Part shown: positions 2,640 through 28,813 of the stretch, piece after piece
How the letters are laid out: every line of letters starts with the position of its first letter
Position numbering within the stretch: position 1 is the first letter of the stretch
Assembly: GCA_951799405.1 (NCBI GenBank)
Contig: OX637333.1
Span: forward strand, 16,987,960 to 17,051,959
DNA length: 64,000 bases
From: Agapetus fuscipes
Lineage: Eukaryota > Arthropoda > Insecta > Trichoptera > Glossosomatidae
Direction: 5' to 3'
Made by a program: the position numbers and the translations under genes
Notes under the pieces: model-generated
The model's database searches: none
What the model was told of the DNA's origin: nothing
Seen by the model: only the letters and a program-made list of their open reading frames with translations

Positions 2640-5600
2640 AGCAATAAAATTTTTGTGCATATTTTTTAAGGTTGTGAAAAAAAAATCTGAAATTTTTTCA
2701 TATTTACAGATTTCAAAATTTTTGTGCTGGAAGATTGTGGGAGAACGAAATCATAAACATCCCCTTTTTTTCTTCCAAAATGATAGTGAAGCTATTCATA
2801 AAGCATTATATGCAGTCACATTTTTGTGCATATTTTTTAAGTTTGTGTAAAAAAAATCTTAAAATTTTTCATACTTTACAGATTTCAATATTTTTGTGCT
2901 GGTAGATTGTGGGAGAACGAAATCATAAACACCCCCTTTTTTTCTTCCAAAATGATAGTGAAGCTAATCATGAAGCATAATATGCAGTCACATTTTTGTG
3001 CATATTTTTTAAGGTTGTGAAAAACAATCTTAAAATTTTTCATACTTTACAAATTTAAAAAATTTTGTGCTGGAAGATTGTGAGAGAACCAAATCATAAG
3101 CACCCACTTTTTTCTTCCGAAATAATAGTTATACTAATCAGGAAGCATTATATGCAGTCACATTTTTGTGCATATTTTTTAAGGTTGTGAAAAATAAATC
3201 TTAAAATTTTTCATACTTTACAGATTTCAAAATTCTTGTGCTGGAAGATTTTGGGAGAACGAAATCATAAGCACGCATTTTTTTCTTCCAAAATGATAGT
3301 GACACTAATCAGCAAGCGTTAAATGCAGTCACATTTTTGTGCATATTTTTTAAGGTTGTGAAAAATAAATCTTAAAATTTTTCATACTTTACAGATTTCA
3401 AAATTTTTGTGCTGAAAGATTGTGGGAGAACGAAATCATAAGCACCCACTTTTTTTCATTCGAAATGACAGTGACGCTAATAATGAAGCATTATATGCAG
3501 TCACAATTTTGTGCATATTTTTTAAGGTTGTGAAAAATAAATCTTAAAATTTTTCATACTTTACAGATTTCAAAATTTTTGTGCTGGAAGATTGTGGGAG
3601 AACGAAATCATAAGCACCCACTTTTTTTCATCCGAAATGACAGTGACGCTAATAATGAAGCATTATATGCAGTCACATTTTTGTGCATATTTTTTAAGGT
3701 TGTGAAAAATAAATCTTAAAATTTTTCATACTTTACAGATTTCAAAATTTTTGTGCTGGAAGATTGTGGGAGAACGAAATCATAAGCAGCCACTTTTTTT
3801 CATCCGAAATGATAGTGACGCTAATCATAAAGCATTATATGCAGTCACATTTTTGTGCATATTTTTTAAGGTTGTGAAAAATAAAACATAAAATTTTTCA
3901 TACTTTACAGATTTCAAAATTCTTGTGCTGGAAGATTGTGGGAGAACGAAATCATAAGCACCCACTTTTTTTCTTCTAAAATGATAGTGACACTAATCAG
4001 GAAGCGTTAAATGCAGTCACATTTTTGTGCATATTTTTTAAGGTTGTGAAAAATAAATCTTAAAATTTTTCATACTTTACAGATTTTAAAAATTTTGTGC
4101 TGGAAGATTGTGAGAGAACGAAATCATAAACACCCACTTTTTTTCTTCCGAAATGATAGTGATACTAATCAGAAAGCATAATATGCAGTCACATTTTTGT
4201 GCATATTTTTTAAGTTTGTGAAAAAAAAATCTTAAAATTTTTCATACTTTACAGATTTCAAAATTTTTGTGCTGGAAGATTGTGGGAGAACGAAATCATA
4301 AGCACCCATTTTTTTTCATCCGAAATGATAGTGACGCTAATCATGAAGCATAATATGCAGTCACATTTTTGTGCATATTTTTTAAGTTTGTGAAAAATAA
4401 ATCTTAAAATTTTTCATACTTTACAGATTTCAAAATTTTTGTGCTGGAAGATTGTGGGAGAACGAAATCATAAACACCCACTTTGTTTCTTCCGAAATGA
4501 TAGTGACACTAATCAGAAATCGTTATTTGCAGTCACATTTTCGTGCATATTTTTTAAGGTTGTGAAAAATAAATCTTAAAATTTTTCATACTTTACAGAT
4601 TTCAAAATTTTTGTGCTGGAAGATTGTGGGAGAACGAAATCATAAAAACCCCCCTTTTTTTCTTCCGAATTGATAGTGAAGCTAATCATGAAGCATAATA
4701 TGCAGTCACATTTTTGTGCATATTTTTTAAAGTTGTGAAAAAAAAATCTTAAAATTTTTCATACTTTACAGATTTCAATATTTTTGTGCTGGTAGATTGT
4801 GGGAGAACGAAATCATAAACACCCACTTTGTTTCTTCCGAAATGATAGTGACACTAATCAGAAATCGTTATATGCAGTCACATTTTTGTGCATATTTTTT
4901 AAGGTTGTGAAAAATAAATCTTAAAATTTTTCATATTTACAGATTTCAAAATTTTTGTGCTGGAAGATTGTGGGAGAACGAAATCATAAACATCCCCTTT
5001 TTTTCTTCCAAAATGATAGTGAAACTATTCATAAAGCATTATATGCAGTCACATTTTTGTGCATATTTTTTAAGTTTGTGTAAAAAAAATCTTAAAATTT
5101 TTCATACTTTACAGATTTCAATATTTTTGTGCTGGTAGATTGTGGGAGAACGAAATCATAAACACCCCCTTTTTTTCTTCCAAAATGATAGTGAAGCTAA
5201 TCATGAAGCATAATATGCAGTCATATTTTTGTGCATATTTTTTAAGGTTGTGAATAAAAATCTTAAAATTTTTCATACTTTACAAATTTAAAAAATTTTG
5301 TGCTGGAAGATTGTGAGAGAACCAAATCATAAGCACCCACTTTTTTCTTCCCAAATAATAGTTATACTAATCAGAAAGCATTATATGCAGTCACATTTTT
5401 GTGCATATTTTTTAAGTTTGTGAAAAATAAATCTTAAAATTTTTCATACTTTACAGATTTCAAAATTCTTGTGCTGGAAGATTGTGGGAGAACGAAATCA
5501 TAAGCACCCATTTTTTTTCTTCCGAAATGATAGTGACACTAATCAGCAAGCGTTAAATGCAGTCACATTTTTGCGTATATTTTTTAAGGTTGTGAAAAAT

Positions 5601-7036
5601 AAATCTTAAAATTTTTCATACTTTACAGATTTCAAAATTTTTGTGCTGGAAGATTGTGGGAGAACGAAATCATAAGCACCCACTTTTTTTCATCCGAAAT
5701 GACAGTGACGCTAATAATGAAGCATTATATGCAGTCACATTTTTGTGCATATTTTTTAAGGTTGTGAAAAATAAAACTTAAAATTTTCATACTTTAGAGA
5801 TTTCAAAATTTTTGTGCTGGAAGATTGTGGGAGAACGAAATCATAAGCACCCACTTTTTTTCATCCGAAATTATTATAGTGACGCTAATCATGAAGCATA
5901 ATATGCAGTCACATTTTTGTGCATATTTTTGAAGTTTGTGAAAAATAAATCTTAAAATTTTTCATACTTTACAGATTTCAAAATTTTTGTGCTGGAAGAT
6001 TTTGAGAGAACGAAATCATAAGCACCCACTTTTTTTCATCCGAAATAATAGTGACGCTAATCATGAAGCATAATATGCAGTCACATTTTTGTGCATATTT
6101 TTTAAGTTTGTGAAAAATAAATCTTAAAATTTTTCATACTTTACAGATTTCAAAATTTTTGTGCTGGAAGATTTTGAGAGAACAAAATCATAAGCACCCA
6201 CTTTGTTTCTTCCAAAATGACAGTGACGCTAATAATGAAGCATTATATGCAGTCACATTTTTGTGCATATTTTTTAAGGCTGTGAAAAATAAATCTTAAA
6301 ATTTTTCATACTTTACAGATTTCAAAATTTTTGTGCTGGAAGATTCTGGGAGAACGAAATCATAAGCACCCACTTTTTTTCATCCGAAATGATAGTGAGG
6401 CTAATCATAAAGCATTATATGCAGTCACATTTTTGTGCATATTTTTTAAGGTTGTGAAAAATAAATCTTAAAATTTTTCATACTTTACAGATTTCAAAAT
6501 TTTTGTGCTGGAAGATTGTGGGAGAACGAAATCATAAGCACCCACTTTTTTTCTTCCGAAATGATAGTGACACTAATCAGGAAGCGTTATATGCAGTCAC
6601 ATTTTTGTGCATATTTTTTAAGGTTGTGAAAAATATATCTTAAAATTTTTCATACTTTACAGATTTCAAAATTTTTGTGCTGAAAGATTGTGGGAGAACG
6701 AAATCATAAGCACCCACTTTTTTCATCCAAAATGACAGTGACGCTAATAATGAAGCATTATATGCAGTCACATTTTTGTGCATATTTTTTAAGGTTGTGA
6801 AAAATAAATCTTAAAATTTTTCATACTTTACAGATTTCAAAATTCTTGTGCTGGAAGATTGTGGGAGCACGAAATCATAAACACCCACTTTTTTTCTTCC
6901 GAAATGATAGTGACACTAATCAGAAAGCGTTATATGCAGTAACATTTTTGTGCATATTTTTTAAGGTTGTGAAAAAAAAATCTTAAAATTTTTCATACTT
7001 TCCAGATTTCAAAATTTTTGTGCTGGAAGATTGTGG
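2640..7036 (+). repeat. 172-bp satellite array, left arm
   Basis: About 25 tandem monomers with a period of 172 bp (GCAGTCACA landmarks at 3669, 3841, 4013, 4185). Variants differ by single bases, for example GAAGCTAATC versus GACGCTAATC. A block beginning near 2694 recurs almost unchanged near 4928, an offset of about 13 monomers, so part of the array grew by duplication of a multimer of about 2.2 kb. Confidence 0.95.
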
Positions 7037-7052
7037 AATGAATATGCTGGAA

Positions 7053-9104
7053 GAAATTTTAAGATTTATTTTTCACAACCTTAAAAAATATGCACAAAAA
7101 TGTGACTGCATATAATGCTTCATTATTAGCGTCACTGTCATTTAGGATGAAAAAAAGGGGGTGCTTATGATTTCGTTCTCTCACAATCTTCCAGCACAAA
7201 AATTTTGAAATCTGTAAAGTATGAAAAATTTTAAGATTTATTTTTCACAAACTTAAAAAATATGCACAAAAATGTGACTGCATATTATGCTTCATGATTA
7301 GCGTCACTATCATTTCGGATGAAAAAAAGTGGGTGCTTATGATTTCGTTCTCCCACAATCTTCCAGCACAAAAATTTTGAAATCTGTAAAGTATGAAAAA
7401 TTTTAAGATTTTTTTTTCACAAACTTAAAAAATATGCACAAAAATGTGACTGCATATTATGCTTCATGATTAGCTTCACTATCATTTTGGAAGAAAAAAA
7501 GGGGGTGTTTATGATTTCGTTCTCCCACAATCTTCCAGCACAAAAATATTGAAATCTCTAAAGTATGAAAAATTTTAAGTTTTTTTTTACAACCTTAAAA
7601 AATATGCACAAAAATGTGACTGCATATTATGCTTCATGATTAGCTTCACTATCATTTCGGAAGAAAAAAAGGGGGTGTTTATGATTTCGTTCTCCCACAA
7701 TCTTCCAGCACAAAAATATTGAAATCTGTAAAGTATGAAAAATTTTAAGTTTTTTTTTTCACAACCTTAAAAAATATGCACAAAAATGTGACTGCATTTT
7801 ATGCTTCATGATTAGCTTCACTATCATTTCTGAAGAAAAAAAGGGGGTGTTTATGATTTCGTTCTCCCACAATCTTCCAGCACAAAAATATTGAAATCTC
7901 TAAAGTATGAAAATTTTAAGTTTTTTTTTTCACAACCTTAAAAAATATGCACAAAAATGTGACTGCATTTTATGCTTCATGATTAGCTTCACTATCATTT
8001 CGGAAGAAAAAAAAAGGGGGTGTTTGTGATTTCGTTCTCCCACAATCTTCCAGCACAAAAATATTGAAATCTCTAAAGTATGAAAATTTTAAGTTTTTTT
8101 TTTCACAACCTTTAAAAATATGCACAAAAATGTGACTGCATATAATGCTTCATGATTAGCGTCACTATCATTTCGGATGAAAAAAAGTGGGTGCTTATGA
8201 TTTCGTTCTCCCACAATCTTCCAGCACAAAAATTTTGAAATCTGTAAAGTATGAAAAATTTTAAGATTTATTTTTCACAACCTTTAAAAATATGCACAAA
8301 AATGTGACTGCATATAATGCTTCATTATTAGCGTCACTGTCATTTCGGATGAAAAAAAGTGGGTGCTTATGATTTCGTTCTCTCACAATCTTCCAGCACA
8401 AAAATTTTGAAATCTGTAAAGTATGAAAAATTTTAAGATTTATTTTTCACAAACTTAAAAAATATGCACAAAAATGTGACTGCATATTATGCTTCATGAT
8501 TAGCTTCACTATCATTTCGGAAGAAAAAAAGGGGGTGTTTATGATTTCGTTCTCCGACAATCTTCCAGCACAAAAATATTGAAATCTCTAAAGTATGAAA
8601 AATTTTAAGTTTTTTTTTTCACAACCTTAAAAAATACGCACAAAAATGTGACTGCATTTTATGCTTTATGATTAGCTTCACTATCATTTCGAAAGAAAAA
8701 AAGGGGGTGTTTATGATTTCGTTCTCCGACAATCTTCCAGCACAAAAATATTGAAATCTCTAAAGTATGAAAATTTTAAGATTTTTTTTTCACAACCTTA
8801 AAAAATATGCACAAAAATGTGTCTGCATATTATGCTTCATGATTAGCTTCACTATCATTTTGGAAGAAAAAAAGGGGGTGTTTATAATTTCGTTCTCCCA
8901 CAATCTTCCAGCACAAAAATATTGAAATCTCTAAAGTATGAAAAATTTGAAGTTTTTTTTTTCACAACCTTAAAAAATATGCACAAAAATGTGACTGCAT
9001 ATTATGCTTCATGATTAGCTTCACTATCATTTCGGAAGAAAAAAAGGGGGTGTTTATGATTTCGTTCTCCCACAATCTTCCAGCACAAAAATATTGAAAT
9101 CTTC
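7053..9104 (-). repeat. 172-bp satellite array, right arm (inverted)
   Basis: About 12 monomers of the same satellite in reverse orientation. The switch occurs at 7034-7053, where the left arm stops mid-monomer and a short linker leads to an inverted monomer that also starts mid-unit. The right arm is less than half the length of the left, so the palindrome is imperfect. Confidence 0.95.
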
Positions 9105-9345: not shown

Positions 9346-10818
9346 TAAAAAGCAAGAAAATATAGAACTTTGAATAAAATTCAATAGGACCCAAATCAGC
9401 TGCCTCCTCTTTTGACACTAGTGATTTGTATCGGTTTTCATACAAGCATAGACTTTTATATATTTTTTCTCAAAAAGTATAAATGGTCTCAACTTTTAAC
9501 TATGTGCAATTAGTAGTTTATATCATTAACTAGAAAATATTAAATTTTGAACAAAATTTAACGAGTCCCTAGGACCCAAATCAGCTGCCTCCTCTTTTGA
9601 CACTTGTGATTTGTATCGGTTTTCATACAAACTTAGACTTTTATTTTTTTTTTCTCAAAAAGAATAAATGGTCTCAACTTTTAACTATGTGTAATTAGTA
9701 GTTTATATCATTAACTAGAAAATATTAAATTTTGAACAAAATTTAACGAGTCCCTAGGACCCAAATCAGTTGCCTCCTCTTTTGACACTAGTGATTTGTA
9801 TGGGTTTTCATACAAACTTAGATTTTATATTTTTTTTCCCAAAAAGTATAAATGGTCTCAACTTTTAACTATGTGTAATTAGTAGTTTATATCATTAACT
9901 AGCAAAATATTAAATTTTGAACAAAATTTAACGAGTCCCTAGGACCCAAATCAGCTGCCTCCTCTTTTGACACTTGTGATTTGTATCGGTTTTCATACAA
10001 ACTTAGACTTTTATTTTTTTTTTCTCAAAAAGTATAAATGGTCTCAACTTTTAACTATGTGTAATTAGTAGTTTATATCATTAACTAGAAAATATTAAAT
10101 TTTGAACAAAATTTAACGAGTCCCTAGGACCCAAATCAGCTGCCTCCTCTTTTGACACTTGTGATTTGTATCGGTTTTCATACAAACTTAGACTTTTATT
10201 TTTTTTTTCTCAAAAAGAATAAATGGTCTCAACTTTTAACTATGTGTAATTAGTAGTTTATATCATTAACTAGAAAATATTAAATTTTGAACAAAATTTA
10301 ACGAGTCCCTAGGACCCAAATCAGTTGCCTCCTCTTTTGACACTAGTGATTTGTATGGGTTTTCATACAAACTTAGATTTTATATTTTTTTTCCCAAAAA
10401 GTATAAATGGTCTCAACTTTTAACTATGTGTAATTAGTAGTTTATATCATTAACTAGCAAAATATTAAATTTTGAACAAAATTTAACGAGTCCCTAGGAC
10501 CCAAATCAGCTGCCTCCTCTTTTGACACTTGTGATTTGTATCGGTTTTCATACAAACTTAGACTTTTATTTTTTTTTTCTCAAAAAGTATAAATGGTCTC
10601 AACTTTTAACTATGTGTAATTAGTAGTTTATATCATTAACTAGAAAATATTAAATTTTGAACAAAATTTAACGAGTCCCTAGGACCCAAATCAGCTGCCT
10701 CCTCTTTTGACACTTGTAATTTGTATCGGTTTTCATACAAACTTAGACTTTTATTTTTTTTTTCTCAAAAAGTATAAATGGTCTCAACTTTTAACTATGT
10801 GTAATTAGGAGTTTATAT
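9346..10818 (+). repeat. 185-bp satellite array, left block
   Basis: About eight monomers with a period of 185 bp (ACGAGTCCCTAGG landmarks at 9561, 9746, 9931). A three-monomer higher-order unit of about 555 bp is repeated: the variant AGAATAAATGG occurs near 9661 and 10216, and a TTTCCCAAAAAG variant one monomer after each. The block is cut by the gypsy insertion and resumes at 18034. Confidence 0.95.
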
Positions 10819-11289
10819 TGTTACGTAATTAGGGTTCAATTGTCTTCAAATTAAAAATACACAGGTCTTCTTCAATAGTTATTTATTTTACACTGTTACA
10901 AAATTTATTTTCACACTACTTTCTCGATTATTCCATTGGTTTCGGTTCACTGATCAGATGGCTTCGATGTGTTTGTTAGTCGCTATGATACTGGCCCGCT
11001 CTGCAGGCCATTCGCACCTTTATACTCTTCAGAGCAGTATGATCCAGAACTAAAGTCGCCAGACGGTTCCAGAGTAATTATTACTTCTCGATGTTTCACG
11101 TACTACCTAGACACAACCAAAATCCTACCTACCAATGCAATACAGTATTCCTATAATTATAACAAATACCTACTTAGCCTAGAGAATTCTACACTTATAC
11201 ATAATTATCGATCTTACCTACCAATACTTTTGAGGATTCTTATAACTATAACTATCCATACTTATTTCAATATTTATATTTACATAACA
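10819..11289 (-). repeat. 3' LTR of the gypsy element
   Basis: 471 bp, on the + strand starting TGTTACGTAATTAGGG and ending TTTACATAACA. It matches 17563-18033 base for base by eye. The 111-codon + strand frame inside it is antisense to transcription and unlikely to be a gene. Confidence 0.97.
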
Positions 11290-11303
11290 CTACCCCCCAC
11301 CTA
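11290..11303 (-). promoter_or_regulatory. Polypurine tract of the gypsy element
   Basis: On the - strand the 14 bases abutting the 3' LTR read TAGGTGGGGGGTAG, the expected plus-strand primer. The last pol codons (Gly-Gly-Gly-stop) are written within this tract, so coding sequence runs right up to the LTR. Confidence 0.8.
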
Positions 11304-14300
11304 GACTGTTTCGTCCCGGAACAGTCTTGACTCTGTGTAGGTAGGGGCATGCTGATCCACGTCGACACCCTGTGGTCAGGAAGAAGTGGCAGTCCACGGA
11401 TTTCTCCCCACTGGCTCTCGGCTGCGCTTGCTCGCAGCACACCATGACGCTGATGCCGACTCCCGAGAACACTGCTTCAATCATACTCCGGATTATCCGC
11501 CAGTCTCGATTAGCGCGGCCGCCACCCATCTTCGGTATTGCCAGACGCGCCTGCTGATCCTCCAACATGTAGTCACGCAGCTCAACAAGGCCGTCCCACA
11601 ATGCCTTGTAGTCCTCTTCCAGGTTGCTGGAATCCGGGACAACCAGGCAGTATGCTTGTTGACGCCCCTTCGGTAGTCTCAGAGCTCTTCCTTGCGGGCT
11701 GCTCGAGGGTTGCGGTTCTCCGAATTTGTATCGGAAGACCCGTGCAATTCCTCTAGACATATCTAGATCTTCCGGTACACTGCATGCCAGTGTGTGGTCC
11801 CTAGTGACCTCAAATAAGTCCTTGTGGACTTCTGTGGTCACTCCATGGCGAAACTTCTGCCCTGACTTCGCGTTCTCCCAAAACGTCTCAAAGGCTGGTG
11901 ATCTTTCGGATGCGACGCACTGTCGTACTTTTTGGGCTGGTTGGTCATCATTATCGCCTAGGTATGGTGAGAGGCGATTGTAGTGCACGACCCTTGGTTT
12001 TCCGTTTGGTCTCTTTTTTATGCGGTAGACCACATCGTTGATGCGCTCCAAGATCTCGTACGGCCCGTCCCAGGAACGCTGAAGTTTCGGACAGTATCCT
12101 TGGCGCCTCTTGGGGTCAAAAAGCCACACCCAGTCACCAGCTTTGTACCCCATGCTGTCAGCTCTGGTGTCATAGCGCTCCTTCATTTGATCGCTGGCTT
12201 CCCCGATGTTCATGCGGACCTGATCATGGATGTCATCCAGCCTCCTGCGAAGGTCTGTCACATAGTCTTCTCCGGCTAGGTCTTCACCTGGTTTGCAGCC
12301 AAATTTGAGATCACAAGGAAGTCGCATTTCTCGCCCAAACAGTATGCTGCTGGGAGTCTTCTTCGTCGTTTCCTGAACAGCCGACCGGTAAGCCAATAAG
12401 AACAAAGGCAGATGTCGGTCCCAGTCCCGCTGATGGCTGGACACTACTTTGGCTAAGTACCTCCCCACGGTACGGTTCATCCTTTCCACCATTCCATCAG
12501 ACTGTGGATGTAGCGCAGTGGTCCTGGTCTTGTAGATCCCTAGCCGCTCACACATTTGCTGGAAGATAGCAGCTTCAAAGTTCCTTCCCTGATCAGAATG
12601 TAATTCCAGGGGTACGCCAAACCTGCTGATAAATTCGGTAACTAGAACTTCAGTCACGGTTACGGCCTCTTGGTTAGGGATTGAGTAAGCTTCCACCCAC
12701 TTGCTGAAGTAATCCATCACCACCATGATGTACTTGTTACCCTTCTCAGTTGTAGGAAATGGGCCAGCTATGTCGATGGCAATTCTTTCAAAGGGGCTGC
12801 CAACATTGTACTGACGCATTGGTGCTCGCCTTTTCCTTTGCGGTCCATTGGCCGTTGCACAGGTTACACATTTTCGACACCAATCTTTGACGTCTTCGCT
12901 GCAGTTGATCCAGTAAAATCGCTCTTTCACTTTCTCCAGCGTCTTCTTAACGCCTAGATGTCCTCCAGAAGTTCCTCCATGCAGCAGTCCAAGGATTTCC
13001 GGTACTCGGCTCCTCGGAACGAGGGTTTGCTTTCTTCTAAGTGTGCCGTCTTCCTTCTCGATCTTTCGTTTCAGAAACCCTCCTTCTATCACTATGGATC
13101 CCCATTGAGCCCAATAAGCCTTGACAGTTGGTGATAAGGGGGCGAGTTTTTCCCAGGTTGGCCTTTCTCCTTCTCGCGCCCATTCCATCACATACTTCAA
13201 GTCCGGATCATTCAGTTGGTCTTGCGCCAATTTTTCATCTTGCCAGTCCTCATCTTCGGTGGTCGTCCTTTGGACAATTGCTACCTTGTCCTTCATCTTG
13301 CTGCAATGTTTGCAGTCACTGGCGCATGGTCGTCTGGATAATGCATCCGCATTTCGATGAAGCGTGCCAGGTCTATGTTCGGAGTCATAATCATACTCCT
13401 GGAGCCTTTCAATCCATCTAGCCACTTGCCCTTCTGGGTTTTTGAATTTCAGAAGCCAAACCAGTGCAGCATGATCAGTCCGTAGTGTGAATTTTCTCCC
13501 GTACAAGTATTTGCGGAAGTGTTCCACTGATTTTATCACGGCAAGAAGCTCTCGTCTGGTCACGCAATAATTTCGTTCTGGCTTGGAAAGCACTTTACTG
13601 AAGTAACCCAGAACAGTCTCATGCCCATCCTGTATTTGGGAAAGGACGCCTCCTATCCCCACATTACTAGCGTCGGTATCCAGGATGAACTTTCCATCTT
13701 TTCGTGGGTAGCTCAAGATGGGGGCACTTGTTAATCTTCCCTTAAGCTCTTCAAATGCTTGTGCGCAGGAATCACTCCAATGGAAGCGAGTGTTTTCTTC
13801 CGTAAGCTTGGTGAGCGGTTTTGCAATGTCCGCAAATCTTGGCACAAACCTCCTGTAATAAGTGCACAGCCCCAGGAAACTCCTAGTTTCATGTTTGTCC
13901 TTCAGCACGGGCCAGTCTCTTACTGCCTTGATTTTGGCAGGGTCAACTTCAACTCCACGTTGAGAAACTATGTGTCCCAGGTAATTTACTTGTTTCTTGA
14001 ACAGGTTACACTTTTTCGGGTTGAGCTTCAGTCCAGCGTCTTGTAGTCGCCCGAAAACTTGCTCCAGATTTCTCAACTGATGGTTGAAGTCCTTTCCCAG
14101 GATGATTATGTCATCCAAGTATACCAGGCAGGTTTCCCATGACAGTCCTCGCAGCACATTCTCCATCAGCCTTTCAAACGTGGCGGGGGCATTGCATAAG
14201 CCAAATGGCATCACGGTGAACTGCCAAAGTCCAGATCCAGTCGAGAATGCAGTTTTCTCCTTATCTTTGGCATCCAATTCAACTTGCCAGTAGCCACTTT

Positions 14301-15552
14301 TCAGGTCCAATGTGGAAAAAATGGTGCATCCTGCCAATGTGTCCAAGGTGTCGTCAATCCTTGGCAGAGGGTAACTATCCTTTTTCGTAACATCGTTGAG
14401 CAGTCTGTAGTCCACACAAAATCTCGTGGTACCATCCTTCTTTTTCACCAGTACCACCGGGGATGTCCAAGGGCTACTTGATGGTTCTATGATGCCATCC
14501 TTGCTCATGTCTTTGATGATCTTGTCAGCTTCTTCCCGCTTTGCAAAGGGTAGTCTTCTCGGAGCCTGTTTTATTGGTCTCGCTTCTCCGGTGTCTATGC
14601 TATGTCGCACTACCTTGGTTCTTCCCAGACGGCCATTAGAGTCCTCGAAAATGTTCTGGTAGCGGCAGATCAAACTCCTCACTCTCCGTTTGTTTTCCTC
14701 GGTTAGACCTTGGGAAGCGTCGTGGACCAGGGCTTCCAATTGTGTTGACAATTTGTTTCCTTCGCATGACATGTTTGTCATCTGTTGCACAATGGAAGTT
14801 ATCCTCTCACATCTGCCCAAAACAAAACCTTCATTCATTTTAACTGGGTAGCTGTTCACATTCATGATCTTGACAGGAATGGTCTCCTTTGCGCGAATCA
14901 CTGTTCTTGCCACCATGACTCCTTTGTTAACATTGTCCATGTTCTCCGGTTCTATCATACAGATTTGGTCATTTGTACTACTGGAATCCAGGCGGGCACT
15001 CACTATCATCTCGGATCGCCCCTTCACTTCGGTATTCTTGGCTAGGATAACACGTGCAGCCAGTTCTTTCCGTCTTTGCAGGATGACTTCTTCATTTCCA
15101 ATTTTAATGGACCCTTTCTTTAAATTTAAACTGCACCCAAATCTGTCCAGTATGTCCATTCCCAATATAACGTCTTCTTCAATGTTGGCCACCAACGTCC
15201 GATGATCAAAAGTGGTGCTGCCAATTTGGAAGGTGGCAATCGTCTCCCCATACACCTGTGCTGACTCTCCCGTGGCGGTGTGCAGAGACCACTTTGTTGG
15301 TGCAATCTGCTTACCTCGCGCCACTATGTCGCGTCTCAGAATTGTCCTGGTTGCTCCCGTGTCCACCAGTAGTTCACGAGTTACTCCATCTATTATGCCA
15401 TTGATAAAAATGCTGCTGGCTTTTCCTCTCACGGTTGCGACAGTAGCAGCAGATTTCAGGGCCTCTCCAGCGTGGGTCAACGGTTGCCCCTTCCCATTAA
15501 CCCTTTCTAGTTTTCCGCAGCCTGTTTTCTGGGTTTCTGAGGCTTGGGACAC
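11290..15552 (-). CDS. pol: Gypsy Pol polyprotein with C-terminal macrodomain and CCCH finger
   Basis: 1420 codons, uninterrupted, overlapping gag by 46 nt in the -1 frame, so expression probably uses a -1 frameshift. Aspartic protease: LVDTGA at residues 62-67. RT: about 325-500 with YLDD at 478-481. RNase H: about 620-740 (DTDAS at 625, E668, D693). Integrase: H858, H865, C895, C898, then D927, D987 and E1023, giving the canonical D,D-35-E spacing. A GPY/F-like module lies near 1163-1165. An unusual extension of about 210 residues follows: a TARG1/OARD1-like macrodomain (about 1240-1371) and a CCCH zinc finger (C1388, C1396, C1402, H1406). The enzymes copy element RNA into DNA and integrate it. 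The extension has no standard role in Ty3/gypsy elements. Confidence 0.95.
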   Translation of the reverse strand: MSQASETQKTGCGKLERVNGKGQPLTHAGEALKSAATVATVRGKASSIFINGIIDGVTRELLVDTGATRTILRRDIVARGKQIAPTKWSLHTATGESAQVYGETIATFQIGSTTFDHRTLVANIEEDVILGMDILDRFGCSLNLKKGSIKIGNEEVILQRRKELAARVILAKNTEVKGRSEMIVSARLDSSSTNDQICMIEPENMDNVNKGVMVARTVIRAKETIPVKIMNVNSYPVKMNEGFVLGRCERITSIVQQMTNMSCEGNKLSTQLEALVHDASQGLTEENKRRVRSLICRYQNIFEDSNGRLGRTKVVRHSIDTGEARPIKQAPRRLPFAKREEADKIIKDMSKDGIIEPSSSPWTSPVVLVKKKDGTTRFCVDYRLLNDVTKKDSYPLPRIDDTLDTLAGCTIFSTLDLKSGYWQVELDAKDKEKTAFSTGSGLWQFTVMPFGLCNAPATFERLMENVLRGLSWETCLVYLDDIIILGKDFNHQLRNLEQVFGRLQDAGLKLNPKKCNLFKKQVNYLGHIVSQRGVEVDPAKIKAVRDWPVLKDKHETRSFLGLCTYYRRFVPRFADIAKPLTKLTEENTRFHWSDSCAQAFEELKGRLTSAPILSYPRKDGKFILDTDASNVGIGGVLSQIQDGHETVLGYFSKVLSKPERNYCVTRRELLAVIKSVEHFRKYLYGRKFTLRTDHAALVWLLKFKNPEGQVARWIERLQEYDYDSEHRPGTLHRNADALSRRPCASDCKHCSKMKDKVAIVQRTTTEDEDWQDEKLAQDQLNDPDLKYVMEWAREGERPTWEKLAPLSPTVKAYWAQWGSIVIEGGFLKRKIEKEDGTLRRKQTLVPRSRVPEILGLLHGGTSGGHLGVKKTLEKVKERFYWINCSEDVKDWCRKCVTCATANGPQRKRRAPMRQYNVGSPFERIAIDIAGPFPTTEKGNKYIMVVMDYFSKWVEAYSIPNQEAVTVTEVLVTEFISRFGVPLELHSDQGRNFEAAIFQQMCERLGIYKTRTTALHPQSDGMVERMNRTVGRYLAKVVSSHQRDWDRHLPLFLLAYRSAVQETTKKTPSSILFGREMRLPCDLKFGCKPGEDLAGEDYVTDLRRRLDDIHDQVRMNIGEASDQMKERYDTRADSMGYKAGDWVWLFDPKRRQGYCPKLQRSWDGPYEILERINDVVYRIKKRPNGKPRVVHYNRLSPYLGDNDDQPAQKVRQCVASERSPAFETFWENAKSGQKFRHGVTTEVHKDLFEVTRDHTLACSVPEDLDMSRGIARVFRYKFGEPQPSSSPQGRALRLPKGRQQAYCLVVPDSSNLEEDYKALWDGLVELRDYMLEDQQARLAIPKMGGGRANRDWRIIRSMIEAVFSGVGISVMVCCEQAQPRASGEKSVDCHFFLTTGCRRGSACPYLHRVKTVPGRNSLGGG
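11335..11391 (-). other. CCCH zinc finger at the C-terminus of Pol
   Basis: Residues 1388-1406 show C-x7-C-x5-C-x3-H, the spacing of single-strand RNA-binding CCCH fingers, with aromatic or hydrophobic residues at the usual places (HFF after the first Cys, PYL before His). It sits about 17 residues after the macrodomain and 14 residues before the stop. An RNA-binding role is inferred from the family. Confidence 0.7.
11440..11835 (-). other. TARG1/OARD1-like macrodomain region of Pol
   Basis: Residues about 1240-1371. Landmarks: KDLFEVTRDHTLACSVPEDL aligned with the N-terminal strand and loop of TARG1; MSRGIARVFRYKFG aligned with its Met-Gly-Ala-Gly-Ile-Ala loop; QAYCLVVP strand; YKALWDGLVELRDYM helix; AIPKMGGGRANRDW aligned with the Pro-Arg-Ile-Gly-Cys-Gly loop; then helix and strand IIRSMIEAVF / ISVMV. 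From memory, TARG1 catalysis needs a Lys after the YLIT strand and an Asp after the GCGL loop. Here those positions are Pro and Ala, so ADP-ribose binding without hydrolysis is the likelier activity. Assignment is by motif order only. Confidence 0.65.
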
Positions 15553-16889
15553 TTGGTGCTAAGGTGGCCCAGCTGTCCGCAGTTCCAGCAGCGTGGGTCT
15601 CGTCTTCGAGGTCTCAGACGTTCCAGCACTTTTTCAATTAGCTCCTCGGTTGTAGGTAGCTTGACCTCCTCTGCCTCGACTGCACGAACCCTGGCGTGGC
15701 CCCTGATGGACTGTTTGACAGCCTCAAACTCGAGAGCTTGGCTGAGCGCCTCGTTCAAAGCCTTGGGATGGGCCAGTTTTACGGCTTGTTGCGTCTCCCA
15801 TTCCCGCAATCCATTTAGGAACTTGTCCACTGCCAAGCTCTCACAGATGTCGTCGGAGGCTGTCGGGTAAGCGTCTCGTACCAGGCGGGCGATGTCCATT
15901 TCAAACTCCTGGAGGCTCTCGTTGGGCTTCTGCACCCTTGTGTTCAGCTGCGACTTGTACAGCTGCTCCAGGCACTTGTGGCCATAGCGCATATCCAAGC
16001 GCTGCTTCAGCTGCCCAAAGTCACCACGGTTGTCCAGGGGTATGGCCTGCAGAACCCTGAGAGCGTCTCCTCGGAGCGACAGGCTGAGAACCGAAGCCTT
16101 CTTCTGCTGGCTCTAGGCTCCCATCATGGCAGCCGTCTCAAAGAGGGTCAAATACTCCTCCCACGACGTCTTCCCGTCGAAGGTCGGAAGGTTGTGCTTC
16201 GACAGCGAAGGGTCGTCATCCCCTCTAGTGACCCTGGTTGGAGTTGAGCATCCCTGGTCGGTCTCGTCGTGAAGGCCGCCTTTGGGGGATATTCTGGTGG
16301 ACTCCATCTGACACTTGTCAGCCAGCTCGGCACGCAGACGATCCTCCAGGCTTGCCACACGGGCCTCAATCTCCGACATTGCTCGCGAGCTTTCTGCCAC
16401 TTTCTTCTCCAGCCCGGCTAGGTTGCTGGTCATCTTCTCCTCCAGCCCAGTCATCTTCTCCTCCAGCCCGGTCAGGTTGCTGGTCATCTTCTCCTCCATG
16501 GTTGCCAGGTCCTCCTTCAGGGTCTTGGCGTTGTCAGCCATCTCAGTCTTCAGTCCTGTCAGGTTGGTGGTCATCTTCTCCTCCAGCCCGGTCAGGTCCT
16601 CCTTCAGGGTCTTGGCGTTGTCAGCCATCTTCTCCTCCAGGGTCTTGGCGTTGTCAGCCATCTCAGTCTTCAGTCCTGTCAGGTTACTGTTGATGCTGAT
16701 ATTTAGCTCGTCCAAGGCGCGGTCCCCTCCAGACGCCATGACAAAATATGCCGGGTCTTCGCCTGACTGTTCCAAGGCCTCTATGAGGCGTGCTTGTAAG
16801 GCTGCCTTTCCTCCTGAGGTCTCCAGGTCCCTCTCCAGAAGCTCATTTTTAAGCTCAGTGACTTTGAGGTCCTTGACTTTAGTTGCCAT
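15507..16889 (-). CDS. gag: Gypsy Gag with SAP domain, coiled coil and CCHC knuckle; one in-frame TAG
   Basis: The ATG at 16889 opens a frame of 461 codons interrupted once by TAG at 16113-16115. Before the stop: an SAP-type DNA-binding motif (about residues 6-40, LKVTELKNELLERDLETSGG), then a charged coiled coil built of near-repeats such as TGLKTEMADNAKTL and GLEEKMTSNL (about 75-165). After the stop, in the same frame, capsid-like sequence continues (SLRGDALRVLQAIPL) to a CCHC knuckle CWNCGQLGHLSTKC. A SAP domain in Gag could help nuclear or chromatin association (inference). The stop may be a point mutation or a programmed readthrough codon; gypsy elements with continuous Gag are usual. 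Confidence 0.9.
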
Positions 16890-17542
16890 TTTTTTTTTTC
16901 AAAATTTACGTCAAAACAAAAATATTTTCAAATTTATTTAATACAAGTTTTGAGTTTTATATATATAGCTGTTTTGAATACGTACTTTAGCAAAAATAAT
17001 AATTTGTCTGATTACACTGATTGGTAGGTAGGTACTGTCTTTTAATATTTATTTTTAATTCACCAATATTTTTAACATAATAATGTCTGATAGTACATAA
17101 TTATTTATTTCGTCTCAAGTCTTTCAAACACACAGGTAGGTACTTAATGTACATTCACACACTTGTAAACAAAGGATAGTTATTCAAAAACTTTTTCTCG
17201 ATGAATCTGGAACGTTCTTTTGTAATATTTTTCAAGATTTTTATTTATTTATTTTATTTTTTTAATCACACACAATAATAAAAAAACTATGGTCCAATTT
17301 GATGACTTTCTCAATGCGGTAAAATAGTCATTATGTTATGTCCAGAATTATGTCCAGAATTATGTTCCATATGATGTTCCAGAATTTATAAGCAACTTGC
17401 TTTTGCGTCTTTTCTTTTAACAAAAATTTATTTAAACACTTGTTTTCACAAAAGTCAGTTCACACAAAGTTCAATTTGAATAAAGTTCATTTTAACACTA
17501 TTTTATTTATTTTTAGACAGAAGATCTTAATTTTTCTTGACA
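16890..17542 (-). other. Gypsy 5' leader
   Basis: About 650 bp of AT-rich untranslated sequence between the primer-binding region and the gag ATG. It contains several GGTAGGTA-type repeats and no supported frame. It should carry the packaging signal, but none can be pinpointed. Confidence 0.7.
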
Positions 17543-17560
17543 ATTCCGCACCTGACGCCA
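17543..17560 (-). promoter_or_regulatory. Primer binding site of the gypsy element
   Basis: Two bases inside the 5' LTR the - strand reads TGGCGTCAGGTGCGGAAT. The leading TGG pairs with a tRNA CCA end. I could not identify the tRNA with confidence. Confidence 0.7.
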
Positions 17561-17562
17561 AT

Positions 17563-18033
17563 TGTTACGTAATTAGGGTTCAATTGTCTTCAAATTAAAA
17601 ATACACAGGTCTTCTTCAATAGTTATTTATTTTACACTGTTACAAAATTTATTTTCACACTACTTTCTCGATTATTCCATTGGTTTCGGTTCACTGATCA
17701 GATGGCTTCGATGTGTTTGTTAGTCGCTATGATACTGGCCCGCTCTGCAGGCCATTCGCACCTTTATACTCTTCAGAGCAGTATGATCCAGAACTAAAGT
17801 CGCCAGACGGTTCCAGAGTAATTATTACTTCTCGATGTTTCACGTACTACCTAGACACAACCAAAATCCTACCTACCAATGCAATACAGTATTCCTATAA
17901 TTATAACAAATACCTACTTAGCCTAGAGAATTCTACACTTATACATAATTATCGATCTTACCTACCAATACTTTTGAGGATTCTTATAACTATAACTATC
18001 CATACTTATTTCAATATTTATATTTACATAACA
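17563..18033 (-). repeat. 5' LTR of the gypsy element
   Basis: 471 bp identical by eye to 10819-11289 and followed by the second ATAT target copy and resumption of the 185-bp satellite. The AATAAA-containing stretch near the - strand 3' side (reverse complement of TTATTTATTTTA) is a plausible polyadenylation signal. Confidence 0.97.
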
Positions 18034-21000
18034 ATATCATTAACTAGAAAATATTAAATTTTGAACAAAATTTAACGAGTCCCTAGGACCCAAATCAGCT
18101 GCCTCCTCTTTTGACACTTGTGATTTGTACCGGTTTTCATACAAACTTAGACTTTTATTTTTTTTTTCTCAAAAAGTATAAATGGTCTCAACTTTTAACT
18201 ATGTGTAATTAGTAGTTCATCTCATAAACTAGAAAATACAAAATTTCTAACAAAATTTAACGAGTCCCTAGGACCCAAATCAGTTGCCTCCTCTTTTGAC
18301 ACTAGTGATTTGTATGGGTTTTCATACAAACTTAGATTTTATATTTTTTTTCTCAAAAAGTATAAATGGTCTCAACTTTTAACCATGTGTAATAAGTAGT
18401 TCATTTCATTAGCTAGAAAAAACAAAATTTTTCACAAAATTTAACGAGTCCCTAGGACCCAAATCAGCTGCCTCCTCTTTTGACACTTGTGATTTGTATG
18501 GATTTTCATACAAACTTAGACTTTTATTTTTTTTTTTTCTCAAAAATTATAAATGGTCTCAACTTTTAACCATGTGTAATTAGTAGTTTATATCATAGAC
18601 TAGAAAATATTAAATTTTGAACAAAATTTAACGAGTCCCTAGGACCCAAATCAGCTGCCTCCTCTTTTGACACTAGTGATTTGTATGGGTTTTCATACAA
18701 ACTTAGATTTTATATTTTTTTTCTCAAAAAGTATAAATGGTCTCAACTTTTAACTATGTGTAATTAGTAGTTTATATCATTAACTAGAAAATATTAAATT
18801 TTGAACAAAATTTAACGAGTCCCTAGAACCCAAATCAGCTGCCTCCTCTTTTGACACTTGTGATTTGTATCGGTTTTCATACAAACTTAGACTTTTATTT
18901 TATTTTTCTCAAAAAGTATAAATGGTCTCAACTTTTAACTATGTGTAATTAGTAGTTTATATCATTAACTAGAAAATATTAAATTTTGAACAAAATTTAA
19001 CGAGTCCCTAGGACCCAAATCAGCTGCCTCCTCTTTTGACACTTGTGATTTGTATCGGTTTTCATACAAACTTAGAATTTTTTTTTATTTTTCTCAAAAA
19101 GTATAAATGGTCTCAACTTTTAACTATGTGTAGTTAGTAGTTGATATCATTAACTAGAAAATATTAAATTTTGAACAAAATTTAACGAGTCCCTAGGACC
19201 CAAATCAGCTGCCTCCTCTTTTGACACTTGTGATTTGTATCGGTTTTCATACAAACTTAGACTTTTATTTTTTTTTTCTCAAAAAGTATAAATGGTCTCA
19301 ACTTTTAACTATGTGTAATTAGTAGTTTGTATCATAGACTAGAAAATATTAAATTTTGAACAAAATTTAACGAGTCCCTATGACCCAAATCAGCTGCCTC
19401 CTCTTTTGACACTAGTAATTTGTATGGGTTTTCATACAAACTTAGACTTTTATATTTTTTTTCTTAAAAAGTATAAATGGTCTCAACATTTAACTATGTG
19501 TAATTAGTAGTTCATCTCATAAACTAGAAAATACAAAATTTCTAACAAAATTTAACGAGTCCCTAGGACCCAAATCAGTTGCCTCCTCTTTTGACACTAG
19601 TGATTTGTATGGGTTTTCATACAAACTTAGATTTTATATTTTTTTTCTCAAAAAGTATAAATGGTCTCAACTTTTAACCATGTGTAATAAGTAGTTCATT
19701 TCATTAGCTAGAAAAAACAAAAATTTTAACAAAATTTAACGAGTCCCTAGGACCCAAATCAGCTGCCTCCTCTTTTGACACTTGTGATTTGTATGGGTTT
19801 TCATACAAACTTAGACTTTTTTTTTTTTTCTCAAAAAGTATAAATGGTCTCAACTTTTAACCATGTGTAATTAGTAGTTTATATCATAGACTAGAAAATA
19901 TTAAACTTTGCACAAAATTTAACGAGTCCCTAGGACCCAAATCAGCTGCCTCCTCTTTTGACACTAGTGATTTGTATTGGTTTTGATACAAACTTAGACT
20001 TTTATATTTTTTTTCTCAAAAAGTATAAATGGTCTCAACTTTTAACCATGTGTAATTAGTAGTTTATATCATAGACTAGAAAATATTAAATTTTGAACAA
20101 AATTTAACGAGTCCCTAGGACCCAAATCAGCTGCCTCCTCTTTTGACACTAGTGATTTGTATTGGTTTTGATACAAACTTAGACTTTTATATTTTTTTTC
20201 TCAAAAATTATAAATGGTCTCAACTTTTAACTATGTGTAATTAGTAGTTTATATAATTAACTAGAAAATATTAAATTTTGAACAAAATTTAACGAGTCCC
20301 TAGGACCCAAATCAGTTGCCTCCTCTTTTGACACTAGTGATTTGTATGGGTTTTCATACAAACTTAGATTTTATATTTTTTTCTCAAAAAGTATAAATGG
20401 TCTCAACTTTTAACTATGTGTAATTAGTAGTTTATATCATTAACTAGAAAATATTAAATTTTGAACAAAATTTAACGAGTCCCTAGGACCCAAATCAGCT
20501 GCCTCCTCTTTTGACACTTGTGATTTGTATGGGTTTTCATACAAACTTAGACTTTTATATTTTTTTTCTCAAAAAGTATAAATGGTCTCAACTTTTAACT
20601 ATGTGTAATTAGTAGTTCATTTCATTAGCTAGAAAATATTAAATTTTGAACAAAATTTAACGAGTCCCTAGGACCAAAATCAGCTGCCTCCTCTTTTGAC
20701 ACTAGTGATTTGTATTGGTTTTGATACAAACTTAGACTTTTATATTTTTTTTCTCAAAAATTATAAATGGTCTCAACTTTTAACTATGTGTAATTAGTAG
20801 TTTATATAATTAACTAGAAAATATTAAATTTTGAACAAAATTTAACGAGTCCCTAGGACCCAAATCAGCTGCCTCCTCTTTTGACACTTGTGATTTGTAT
20901 CGGTTTTCATACAAACTTAGACTTTTATTTTTTTTTTCTCAAAAAGTATAAATGGTCTCAACTTTTAACTATGTGTAATTAGTAGTTTATATCATTAACT

Positions 21001-22600
21001 AGAAAATATTAAATTTTGAACAAAATTTAACGAGTCCCTAGGACCCAAATCAGCTGCCTCCTCTTTTGACACTAGTGATTTGTATGGGTTTTCATACAAA
21101 CTTAGATTTTATATTTTTTTTCTCAAAAAGTATAAATGGTCTCAACTTTTAACTATGTGTAATTAGTAGTTTGTATCATAGACTAGAAAATATTAAATTT
21201 TGAACAAAATTTAACGAGTCCCTATGACCCAAATCAGCTGCCTCCTCTTTTGACACTTGTGATTTGTATCGGTTTTCATACAAACTTAGACTTTTATTTT
21301 TTTTTTCTCAAAAAGTATAAATGGTCTCAACTTTTAACTATGTGTAATTGTAGTTTATATCATTAACTAGAAAATATTAAATTTTGAACAAAATTTAACG
21401 AGTCCCTAGGACCCAAATCAGCTGCCTCCTCTTTTGACACTTGTGATTTGTATCGGTTTTCATACAAACTTAGACTTTTATTTTTTTTTTCTCAAAAAGT
21501 ATAAATGGTCTCAACTTTTAACTATGTGTAATTAGTAGTTTATATCATTAACTAGAAAATATTAAATTTTGAACAAAATTTAACGAGTCCCTAGGACCCA
21601 AATCAGCTGCCTCCTCTTTTGACACTTGTGATTTGTATCGGTTTTCATACAAACTTTGACTTTTATTTTTTTTTTCTCAAAAAGTATAAATGGTCTCAAC
21701 TTTTAACTATGTGTAATTAGTAGTTTATATCATTAACTAGAAAATATTAAATTTTGAACAAAATTTAACGAGTCCCTAGGACCCAAATCAGCTGCCTCCT
21801 CTTTTGACACTTGTGATTTGTATCGGTTTTCATACAAACTTTGACTTTTATTTTTTTTTTCTCAAAAAGTATAAATGGTCTCAACTTTTAACTATGTGTA
21901 ATTAGTAGTTTATATCATTAACTAGAAAATATTAAATTTTGAACAAAATTTAACGAGTCCCTAGGACCCAAATCAGCTGCCTCCTCTTTTGACACTTGTG
22001 ATTTGTATCGGTTTTCATACAAACTTTGACTTTTATTTTTTTTTTCTCAAAAAGTATAAATGGTCTCAACTTTTAACTATGTGTAATTAGTAGTTTGTAT
22101 CATAGACTAGAAAATATTAAATTTTGAACAAAATTTAACGAGTCCCTATGACCCAAATCAGCTGCCTCCTCTTTTGACACTTGTGATTTGTATCGGTTTT
22201 CATACAAACTTAGACTTTTATTTTTTTTTTCTCAAAAAGTATAAATGGTCTCAACTTTTAACTATGTGTAATTAGTAGTTTATATCATTAACTAGAAAAT
22301 ATTAAATTTTGAACAAAATTTAACGAGTCCCTAGGACCCAAATCAGCTGCCTCCTCTTTTGACACTTGTGATTTGTATCGGTTTTCATACAAACTTTGAC
22401 TTTTATTTTTTTTTTCTCAAAAAGTATAAATGGTCTCAACTTTTAACTATGTGTAATTAGTAGTTTGTATCATTCACTAGAAAATATAAAAAATTTAACA
22501 AAATTTAACGAGTCCCTAGGACCCAAATCAGTTGCCTCCTCTTTTGACACTGGTGATTTGTATTAGTTTTCATGCAAAACTAGACTTGGTTTTTTCAAAA
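18034..22600 (+). repeat. 185-bp satellite array, right block
   Basis: About 25 monomers continuing the array broken by the gypsy element. Diagnostic variants recur at multiples of the monomer: the TTCATCTCATAAACTAG form near 18216 and again near 19510 (about seven monomers), and a GTTTGTATCAT form several times further right. The final monomer diverges and passes into the right-hand unique edge. Confidence 0.95.
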
Positions 22601-26819: not shown

Positions 26820-28813
26820 ACTAAAACAAAGTCTAAAGTACAGATACGTGTCGTTTGACACAAGTCTTAAATACCTCTAAGGGCGCCTAGCTCACTCAAT
26901 TCGTGTCTTTCTTCTATCAAAATTCTTAAATCTGAAATTTACAAAATTTTATCTAATGTTGATGAAACAAAGGGTGTTGGCTCAGACAGAATTGCTCCAA
27001 TTTTCTTGAAAAGATGTGCTAGTCATATTGTTAAGCCTTTATATATTATATTTAAAAAAAGTATCGATGAAGGCAATTTTCCACGTAAATGGAAAGCAGC
27101 TAATGTGACTCCTTTGTACAAGTCAGGTGACAGATCAGACGTAAGGAATTATAGGCCTATATCAATTTTATCTTCCATATCAAAGATTTTCGAATCTATT
27201 GTTAGAGAACAAATGACATTCTTTCTTAAGCCGTATCTGCTGATTGAACAGCATGGTTTTATACGAGGTAGATCGACGGTCACTAATCTTATCTCATACT
27301 GTGACTATCTGTTTTCTGCGTTGGACGGTCGAGTTCAGGTAGATGCAATTTATACAGATTTCCAAAAGGCTTTCGACAAAGTTGATCATCGTATATTATT
27401 GAGAAAGTTGGAAACTCATGGTATACATGGAAGCCTTTTGAGATGGATTTCATCTTATATTTCTAATAGACTAATGACTGTCAAACTAAATGGATACTCA
27501 TCGGAAAGCATCGTAATTACTTCTGGTGTTCCACAGGGCTCTGTTTTGGGTCCATTGTTGTTTACTATATTCGTTAATGATATTGGTAGCTGCTTTAGAC
27601 ATTCTGAGTTCCTATTATTTGCAGATGATCTCAAAATTTTCCGTCAAATTCGATCATCATACGACTGTGAATTGCTTAATGAGGATTTAAATAGATTACA
27701 TGATTATTGTTTTAATAATAATTTGTTTTTGAACCTCAATAAATGTAATTCAATTACATTTACAAAAAATAAAGTGAAAATTGACCACAATTACAAAATA
27801 AATGGCTACAGTTTATTGAGGGTTCATAGGATTAGGGATTTGGGTATCACATTTGATTCTAAACTTAACTTCGACGAACATGTAAATAAAATCACTGAGG
27901 AAAGTAATAAATTACTGGGTTTCATCTTGAGGACTACTAAACCTTTCAAATTTGGTGAATCTTCTTTGTTTTTGTACATGTCACTTATTCGTTCTAAGCT
28001 TGAATACTGTTCGACCGTGTGGAATCCACATTTTAAGAAATATATTGATCAGATTGAAAGAACTCAAACACGTTTTATTAAATTGATGAAGAAAAGACTC
28101 CCCAATAGTACTTTATTTGAAACACTACCTAAACTTGAATCAAGAAGAACTTTGATAGATGTTTGTAATCTCAGAAAGGTGTGTGTATCTGAGTTTGACG
28201 CGCCCAATATTTTAAATAAAATCAATTTTAGATTACCTAATCTCACTAGGTCTTGTTTTCCATTTTATCTCCATAAAACCAATACTTTTGCAGGTTCGAG
28301 AAATCCAACCTATAGAATGTGTGATGTTTATAATAAGAGCTTTTCGCAGTGTGAACTATTTGAGACCACTAAATATAAATTCAAAAAACAAATACGTTTA
28401 CTTATTTTTGGATCTGATATTGTTTCTGGGGTGGGTTGAGTATCGGGCTATTTTTCTATTTTCTATTTTTTATTTTTCATTTTCACTTTCTATTTTTATT
28501 TTTATTTTCTTTTTATTTATTTTTGTTCTTTTTTTTTAATTGTTTGGGGGCAAGTGACAAATTTATGTGTGTATTAGATTTATTTTAAAGAAATATTGTA
28601 ATGGTGTGAATGCTGTGTATGCTTCTAGTGTTGTATAGCTGTGATTGCCTGCGTGATGTTTGTGTGAAGATGTATGCTTGTGTCTATTGATGTAGTGTGC
28701 ATAGTTTGGATGATTGGTTATTTGTATTACTGTTGCTTATTTTTTTTTTTTTATTGTTTATATGTACCAATTGTCTGTATTGCACCTCTTAATAAATAAA
28801 TAAATAAATAAAG
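26820..28813 (+). mobile_element. Jockey-like LINE, 5' truncated, with (AATA)n tail
   Basis: Contains the RT frame at 26899-28439, an AT-rich 3' untranslated region (28440-28785) and an AATA tandem tail (about 28786-28813), a common LINE 3' terminus. The endonuclease half is absent. Confidence 0.85.
26899..28439 (+). CDS. Non-LTR reverse transcriptase (RT to C-terminus), partial
   Basis: An open frame of about 513 codons with no internal stop; the 5' boundary is truncation, not a true start. RT landmarks in order: KGVGSDRIAP, FPRKWKAANVTPLYKSGD, NYRPISILSSISKIFE, EQHGFIRGRSTVTNL, DFQKAFDKVDH (palm Asp), SGVPQGSVLGPLLFTIFVND, and LLFADDLKIF with the FADD catalytic box. Thumb and C-terminal segments follow (SLIRSKLEYCSTVW). 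Best placed in the jockey/CR1 group. An intact frame in a truncated copy suggests fairly recent insertion. Confidence 0.9.

Follow-up and report, generated by a model that had tools for sequence, protein, structure and literature searches.

In the trichopteran Agapetus fuscipes, a stretch of 64,000 nucleotides of contig OX637333.1 (referred to here as the window) carries a Ty3/gypsy long terminal repeat (LTR) retrotransposon whose Pol protein continues beyond its integrase into a tail that, by sequence likeness and predicted structure, holds a macrodomain of the TARG1 type followed by a CCCH zinc finger. Both residues of the TARG1 catalytic pair are replaced in this domain, while they are retained in nearly all of its relatives, and the domain has been kept under purifying selection after this loss. 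The reading preferred here, at a probability of about 0.5, is that the ancestor of the clade captured a cellular TARG1-type domain, with most relatives encoding ADP-ribose erasers and the branch of the window a non-catalytic ADP-ribose binder.

The macrodomain and CCCH finger of the Pol tail

Pol was scanned against Pfam in pieces, giving matches to protease, reverse transcriptase (RT), RNase H, H2C2, rve, SH3_Tf2-1 (29.7 bits, just under the cut-off of 30) and Integrase_p58_C, with protease, RT, RNase H and integrase in the order expected of Ty3/gypsy elements. The integrase domains are followed by a tail of approximately 210 residues consisting of a linker, the macrodomain and the CCCH finger, with the stop codon of Pol abutting the 3' LTR.

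A sequence-only reading of the window had proposed a TARG1-like macrodomain and a CCCH finger on Pol, captured by a young Ty3/gypsy family, and had named structure prediction, a search for the same fused architecture in other copies and a test for purifying selection on the extension as checks. The two modules were confirmed by sequence, Pfam and fold matches. A macrodomain fold was well predicted, and TARG1 (also OARD1 or C6orf130, of the ALC1-like class) was its closest match by sequence and, on the predicted structure, by fold. A chance motif match was ruled out by the match to the PDB sequence (E 7.5e-11) together with the fold match. The finger conforms to the spacing C-x7/8-C-x5-C-x3-H and scores above the Pfam cut-off (Table 1). 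It follows the macrodomain in 92 of 113 proteins (those of P0001-P0124 with at least 40 residues beyond the domain); of the 21 proteins that lack it, 10 are altered or truncated copies, and the remaining 11 come from other lineages, a virus or host genes.

Comparison with known macrodomains showed that the window domain shares G43 and G123 with TARG1, from which it differs in being joined, together with a CCCH finger, to the Pol of a retroelement and in having lost K84 and D125. The macrodomain of the DarG antitoxin was a weaker match than TARG1, and the lysine common to DarG and TARG1 is absent in the window. Macrodomains of alphaviruses and other RNA viruses, which belong to RNA-virus polyproteins, also scored below TARG1.

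Catalytic residues and selection on the macrodomain

In alignments to TARG1, the window domain has proline at the place of K84 and alanine at that of D125. Among the 99 proteins found by searching, lysine was identified in 98 and aspartate in 97, the rest being gaps. Lys84 and residue 125 are described as the catalytic dyad of TARG1 in PMC7050489, which prints the latter as Glu125, the PDB sequence of TARG1 having Asp. The glycines of the ADP-ribose pocket, G43 and G123, are retained in the window domain; according to PMC5928194, the TARG1 mutants G43E, I44E and G123E lose ADP-ribose binding.

Loss of the pair was also identified in P0100 (P, A), P0108 (G, A), family B (R, A) and subfamily A' (P, A), of which A' and B are from the same genome as the window family, termed A. 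A single clade with support 100/99 unites the window, family B and P0108, and the loss can be considered old because half of the macrodomain residues differ between families A and B. P0114 (R, G) shows a separate loss; in P0111, its nearest relative, the lysine is retained and there is a gap at D125. When P0101, with its catalytic pair intact, was used as a query against the genome, the best matches were families A and B (best 150 of 1083 candidates scored), and 12 further pieces read from these matches were all A, A' or B. In P0108 the macrodomain and CCCH finger come immediately after the protease, as though the region from RT to integrase had been deleted.

The ratio of nonsynonymous to synonymous divergence (dN/dS) of the macrodomain between A and A', whose tails are 74% identical, was 0.177 (bootstrap range 0.092-0.305) with copy L032 and 0.181 (0.096-0.311) with copy L033. 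On the integrase side it was 0.062 (0.038-0.090, 500 codons) with L032, and 0.050 (0.017-0.080, 361 codons) and 0.114 (0.050-0.211, 137 codons, with one stop) for the L033 copy. A value of 0.18 was also obtained for the macrodomains of A and B, with dS near saturation, and for the window copy against L029 (0.04-0.60). Two close pairs, the window copy against L031 (0.91) and L032 against L033 (0.42), gave bootstrap ranges that extend past 1 and are uninformative on the macrodomain. The macrodomain is thus under purifying selection that is looser than that on the integrase.

The element, its copies and its relatives

Features of the window are collected in Table 1. Positions 10817-11292 match 17561-18036 over 476 bp at 99.79% identity with a single difference, each LTR being approximately 471 bp, and the 4-bp duplication ATAT was read in the flanks at 10815-10818 and 18034-18037. 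Paired LTRs with a target-site duplication are as expected of a Ty3/gypsy LTR retrotransposon, and the near-identity of the LTRs makes the window copy a young one. The element splits a 185-bp satellite array, which ends at 10818 and restarts at 18034.

Table 1. Features of the window, with positions, strand and the basis of assignment or a remark.
Feature	Positions	Strand	Basis or remark
TARG1/OARD1-class macrodomain	11437..11844	-	PDB sequence match; model and fold matches
CCCH zinc finger, C-x7-C-x5-C-x3-H	11335..11391	-	PF00642 21.4 bits, cut-off 20.5
Codon at TARG1 K84 place, here Pro	11635..11637	-	alignments
Codon at TARG1 D125 place, here Ala	11512..11514	-	alignments
Pol	11290..15552	-	open frame, 1420 amino acids, intact
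Whole Ty3/gypsy LTR element	10819..18033	-	LTR match, 4-bp duplication, satellite array break
3' LTR	10819..11289	-	LTR match; edges from flank sequence
5' LTR	17563..18033	-	LTR match; edges from flank sequence
Gag frame	15507..16889	-	SAP, then coiled-coil-like repeats, capsid region and CCHC knuckle; split by one in-frame stop
SAP domain (Gag N terminus)	16770-16889	-	PF02037 E 3.5e-8, 33.3 bits, cut-off 23.9
185-bp satellite array	9385-10818 and 18034-22587		split by element
172-bp satellite array	2649-7036 and 7054-9102		inverts near 7040; adjoins 185-bp array

The in-frame stop of Gag yields open reading frames at 16113-16889 and 15507-15998, and zf-CCHC was also matched in Gag (Pfam, E 4.1e-6). 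Precomputed PF02037 assignments were found for 50 of 98 relatives, all 50 being from Aromia moschata; a regular expression for SAP matched 0 of 99 proteins, the pattern being too strict in view of these assignments, and a brief literature search on SAP domains in Gag turned up nothing on the subject. Elsewhere in the window, the open frames at 27006-28439 and 57697-58473 resemble non-LTR reverse transcriptases by eye.

At least 150 copies whose tails are near 100% identical were identified in the 618 Mb genome of 148 contigs (150 of 1413 candidates scored), and 107 of the 150 scored copies have the full frame of 1422 codons. Some copies, for example C2:12625331 and C9:5832879, were observed to have frames of 1834-1861 codons, as if Gag and Pol were joined.

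With the integrase-plus-tail piece of the window as query and the tail scored, three proteins were found. When the tail of P0002 was the query, 98 of 202 candidates reached E <= 0.001, the majority being from Aromia moschata and carrying integrase or other domains of such elements. The 98 also include seven beetle proteins in which Pol domains are absent (P0086, P0088-P0091, P0093 and P0094), which together with P0126 are apparently beetle host genes with a TARG1-like macrodomain and its catalytic pair. P0089 was also seen to have a PAM2 motif and P0126 a second, weak macro-like match. Four other retroelements (P0095, P0096, P0098 and P0099) are among the 98, and P0097 is an RNA-virus polyprotein with methyltransferase, helicase, RNA-dependent RNA polymerase and a TARG1-like macrodomain. 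A profile search gave 134 matches, with proteins of further beetles, insect OARD1 and a Macrosteles protein among the 120 listed; contaminating DNA probably accounts for the matches labelled Erysiphe and Klebsiella. In viral contigs, 58 pattern matches and no relatives were found.

The fused architecture is therefore common to the family copies examined and to many relatives, and a private artefact of one copy is refuted by the 98 proteins and the at least 150 genome copies. Purifying selection on the extension was likewise borne out, by the comparison of A and A'. The proposal that a young family made the capture did not stand: the copy is young, but several beetles have elements with the same fusion and the clade includes a protein of Macrosteles, and the capture must therefore be much older than the copy.

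Macrodomains situated after integrase form one group (support 96/78). Their RT domains are 72-77% identical to that of the window in nine proteins with long alignments, with two partial matches at 62% and 80%, and the RT identity of the four other Ty3/gypsy proteins, P0095, P0096, P0098 and P0099, is 42-44%. The macrodomain of P0095 is at the N terminus ahead of the protease, which is probably also the case for P0099, the record of which begins inside the domain, and P0096 and P0098 have theirs between RNase H and integrase. In the tree, P0098 was weakly grouped with human TARG1, with P0095 and P0099 apart. A single origin of all retroelement macrodomains was disfavoured by the approximately unbiased (AU) test (p-AU 0.03), which is not strong, the groups having been named after the first tree, 28 of 96 rows having been omitted and P0140, from Rhamnusium and of unproven element status, having been counted. 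Placement of P0096 with the C-terminal clade was not rejected (p-AU 0.59). With P0096 aside, the simplest reading of these sequences would be several independent captures.

Epsilon-like endogenous retroviruses of fish have previously been described with macro domain reading frames (Basta et al. 2009, cited in PMC4977317). These share with the window a macro domain in a reverse-transcribing element; the citing paper names the fish macro domain as an additional reading frame, whereas that of the window continues the Pol frame at its C-terminal end and forms no such frame. A search of literature titles and abstract openings, with repeat databases and most subscription papers outside its scope, turned up no description of a macrodomain in an LTR retrotransposon Pol.

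Insertion sites and alternative explanations

Flanks of 40 copies (L043-L082) were fetched, of which 37 were readable and three were without a recognisable LTR end. The 3' flanks had TA at positions 2-3 in all 37, A or G at position 1 in 34 and C or T at position 4 in 35, indicating a palindromic target of the RTAY type, a motif that occurs at 2.0% of the positions of 40 control stretches. Window satellites or tandem repeats were found in 0 of the 37 flanks, and satellite targeting was thus not seen. Targeting of dispersed repeats, initially indicated by 92 sequence-sharing flank pairs against 2 pairs among 20 controls, was gone with 40 controls: a common dispersed repeat was identified in 17 of 37 flanks, against 14 of 40 sites at fixed coordinates that served as controls (p 0.36), flanks being scored against each other and controls against the 17 flanks, a slight difference in scoring. 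The queries were whole flanks, and more than one repeat may be counted. A dispersed repeat shared with the flanks occurs at 30 places in 1187-62967 of the window and is SINE-like (short interspersed nuclear element) by impression.

Chromoviruses carry a chromodomain at the C terminus of integrase, and the window element is like them in having an extra module after integrase in a Ty3/gypsy element. It differs from them in that the C-terminal piece of Pol matched eight Pfam families at E <= 1, none of them a chromodomain, in a scan whose filters may drop weak matches. By analogy, the tail might tether integrase to ADP-ribosylated chromatin, as would suit its position directly after the integrase C-terminal domain and the insertion of the window copy inside the 185-bp array. 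As flanks gave no satellite match and no repeat enrichment, tethering is not supported by the flank sequence data, chromatin marks being outside these data; the clear preference is for the local sequence with TA, and we consider this explanation quite unlikely. The tail could instead be a module for RNA binding or packaging, the macrodomain serving as an RNA surface beside the CCCH finger with ADP-ribose uninvolved. TARG1 and its pocket mutants bind RNA, according to PMC5928194, and the finger is present in 92 of the 113 proteins; retention of the catalytic pair in nearly all relatives would not be needed for RNA binding alone, and the net charge of the macrodomain is -2 in the window and 0 in family B against +5 in TARG1 and +1 to +15 in 14 relatives. 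This explanation is regarded as unlikely.

The preferred reading, of a binder that has given up catalysis, has several observations weighing against it. The window pocket is also altered at H32 (to C) and C122 (to G), and family B has V at the I44 place. Constraint on the macrodomain is weaker than on integrase (0.18 against 0.05-0.11 over three stretches), and the window and family B share 50% macrodomain identity at 86.7% integrase-core identity, four pairs with intact residues and 87-88% core identity having 58-63%. Furthermore, Streptomyces SCO6735 is without both residues and yet is listed as a hydrolase in PMC7050489, and the window domain therefore cannot with certainty be called dead. 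It might still work as an ADP-ribosylhydrolase through a different mechanism, as must be the case for SCO6735; the retained fold and pocket glycines and the purifying selection would allow this. However, H32, K84, C122 and D125 all differ together from TARG1, the TARG1 mechanism requires Lys84 and residue 125 as given in PMC7050489, and TARG1 K84A cannot rescue bacteria from DarT (PMC8501950), making such activity decidedly improbable. That the macrodomain is a decaying passenger without function could be suggested by the loss of catalytic residues in the window branch and, separately, in P0114 (K to R, D to G), by the gap at D125 in P0111 and by the close pairs without sign of constraint. This is contradicted by the selection between A and A' (dN/dS 0.18, upper bound 0.31), the frame being intact in 107 of 150 scored copies and the fold well predicted, and we regard decay as hardly credible.

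Under the preferred reading, the ancestor of an insect Ty3/gypsy clade would have acquired a cellular TARG1-type ADP-ribosylhydrolase domain, retained with the CCCH finger as a C-terminal Pol tail right after integrase. Most members of the clade should still have an active ADP-ribose eraser in this domain, shielding element RNA, cDNA ends or proteins against ADP-ribosylation by the host. In the window branch catalysis would most likely have been abandoned with the fold and pocket glycines retained, and the tail would now act as a module that binds ADP-ribose or poly-ADP-ribose, while the surface of the macrodomain and the CCCH finger hold RNA.

Research on viral macrodomains, mostly those of RNA viruses, has treated them as antagonists of PARP-based defence. 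Retention of the catalytic residues in the relatives, together with their replacement in a preserved window domain, points to a contest of elements and hosts over ADP-ribose. It is tentatively suggested that TARG1-type hydrolases were captured repeatedly, at three places in Pol, that one long-lived branch was made into a non-catalytic reader still under selection, and that ADP-ribosylation may be a standing defence of animal hosts against retrotransposons. A prolific LTR family with a TARG1-type domain would make such a defence testable by means of isolated domains, and its relatives, some with and some without the catalytic pair, would provide a natural series from eraser to reader.
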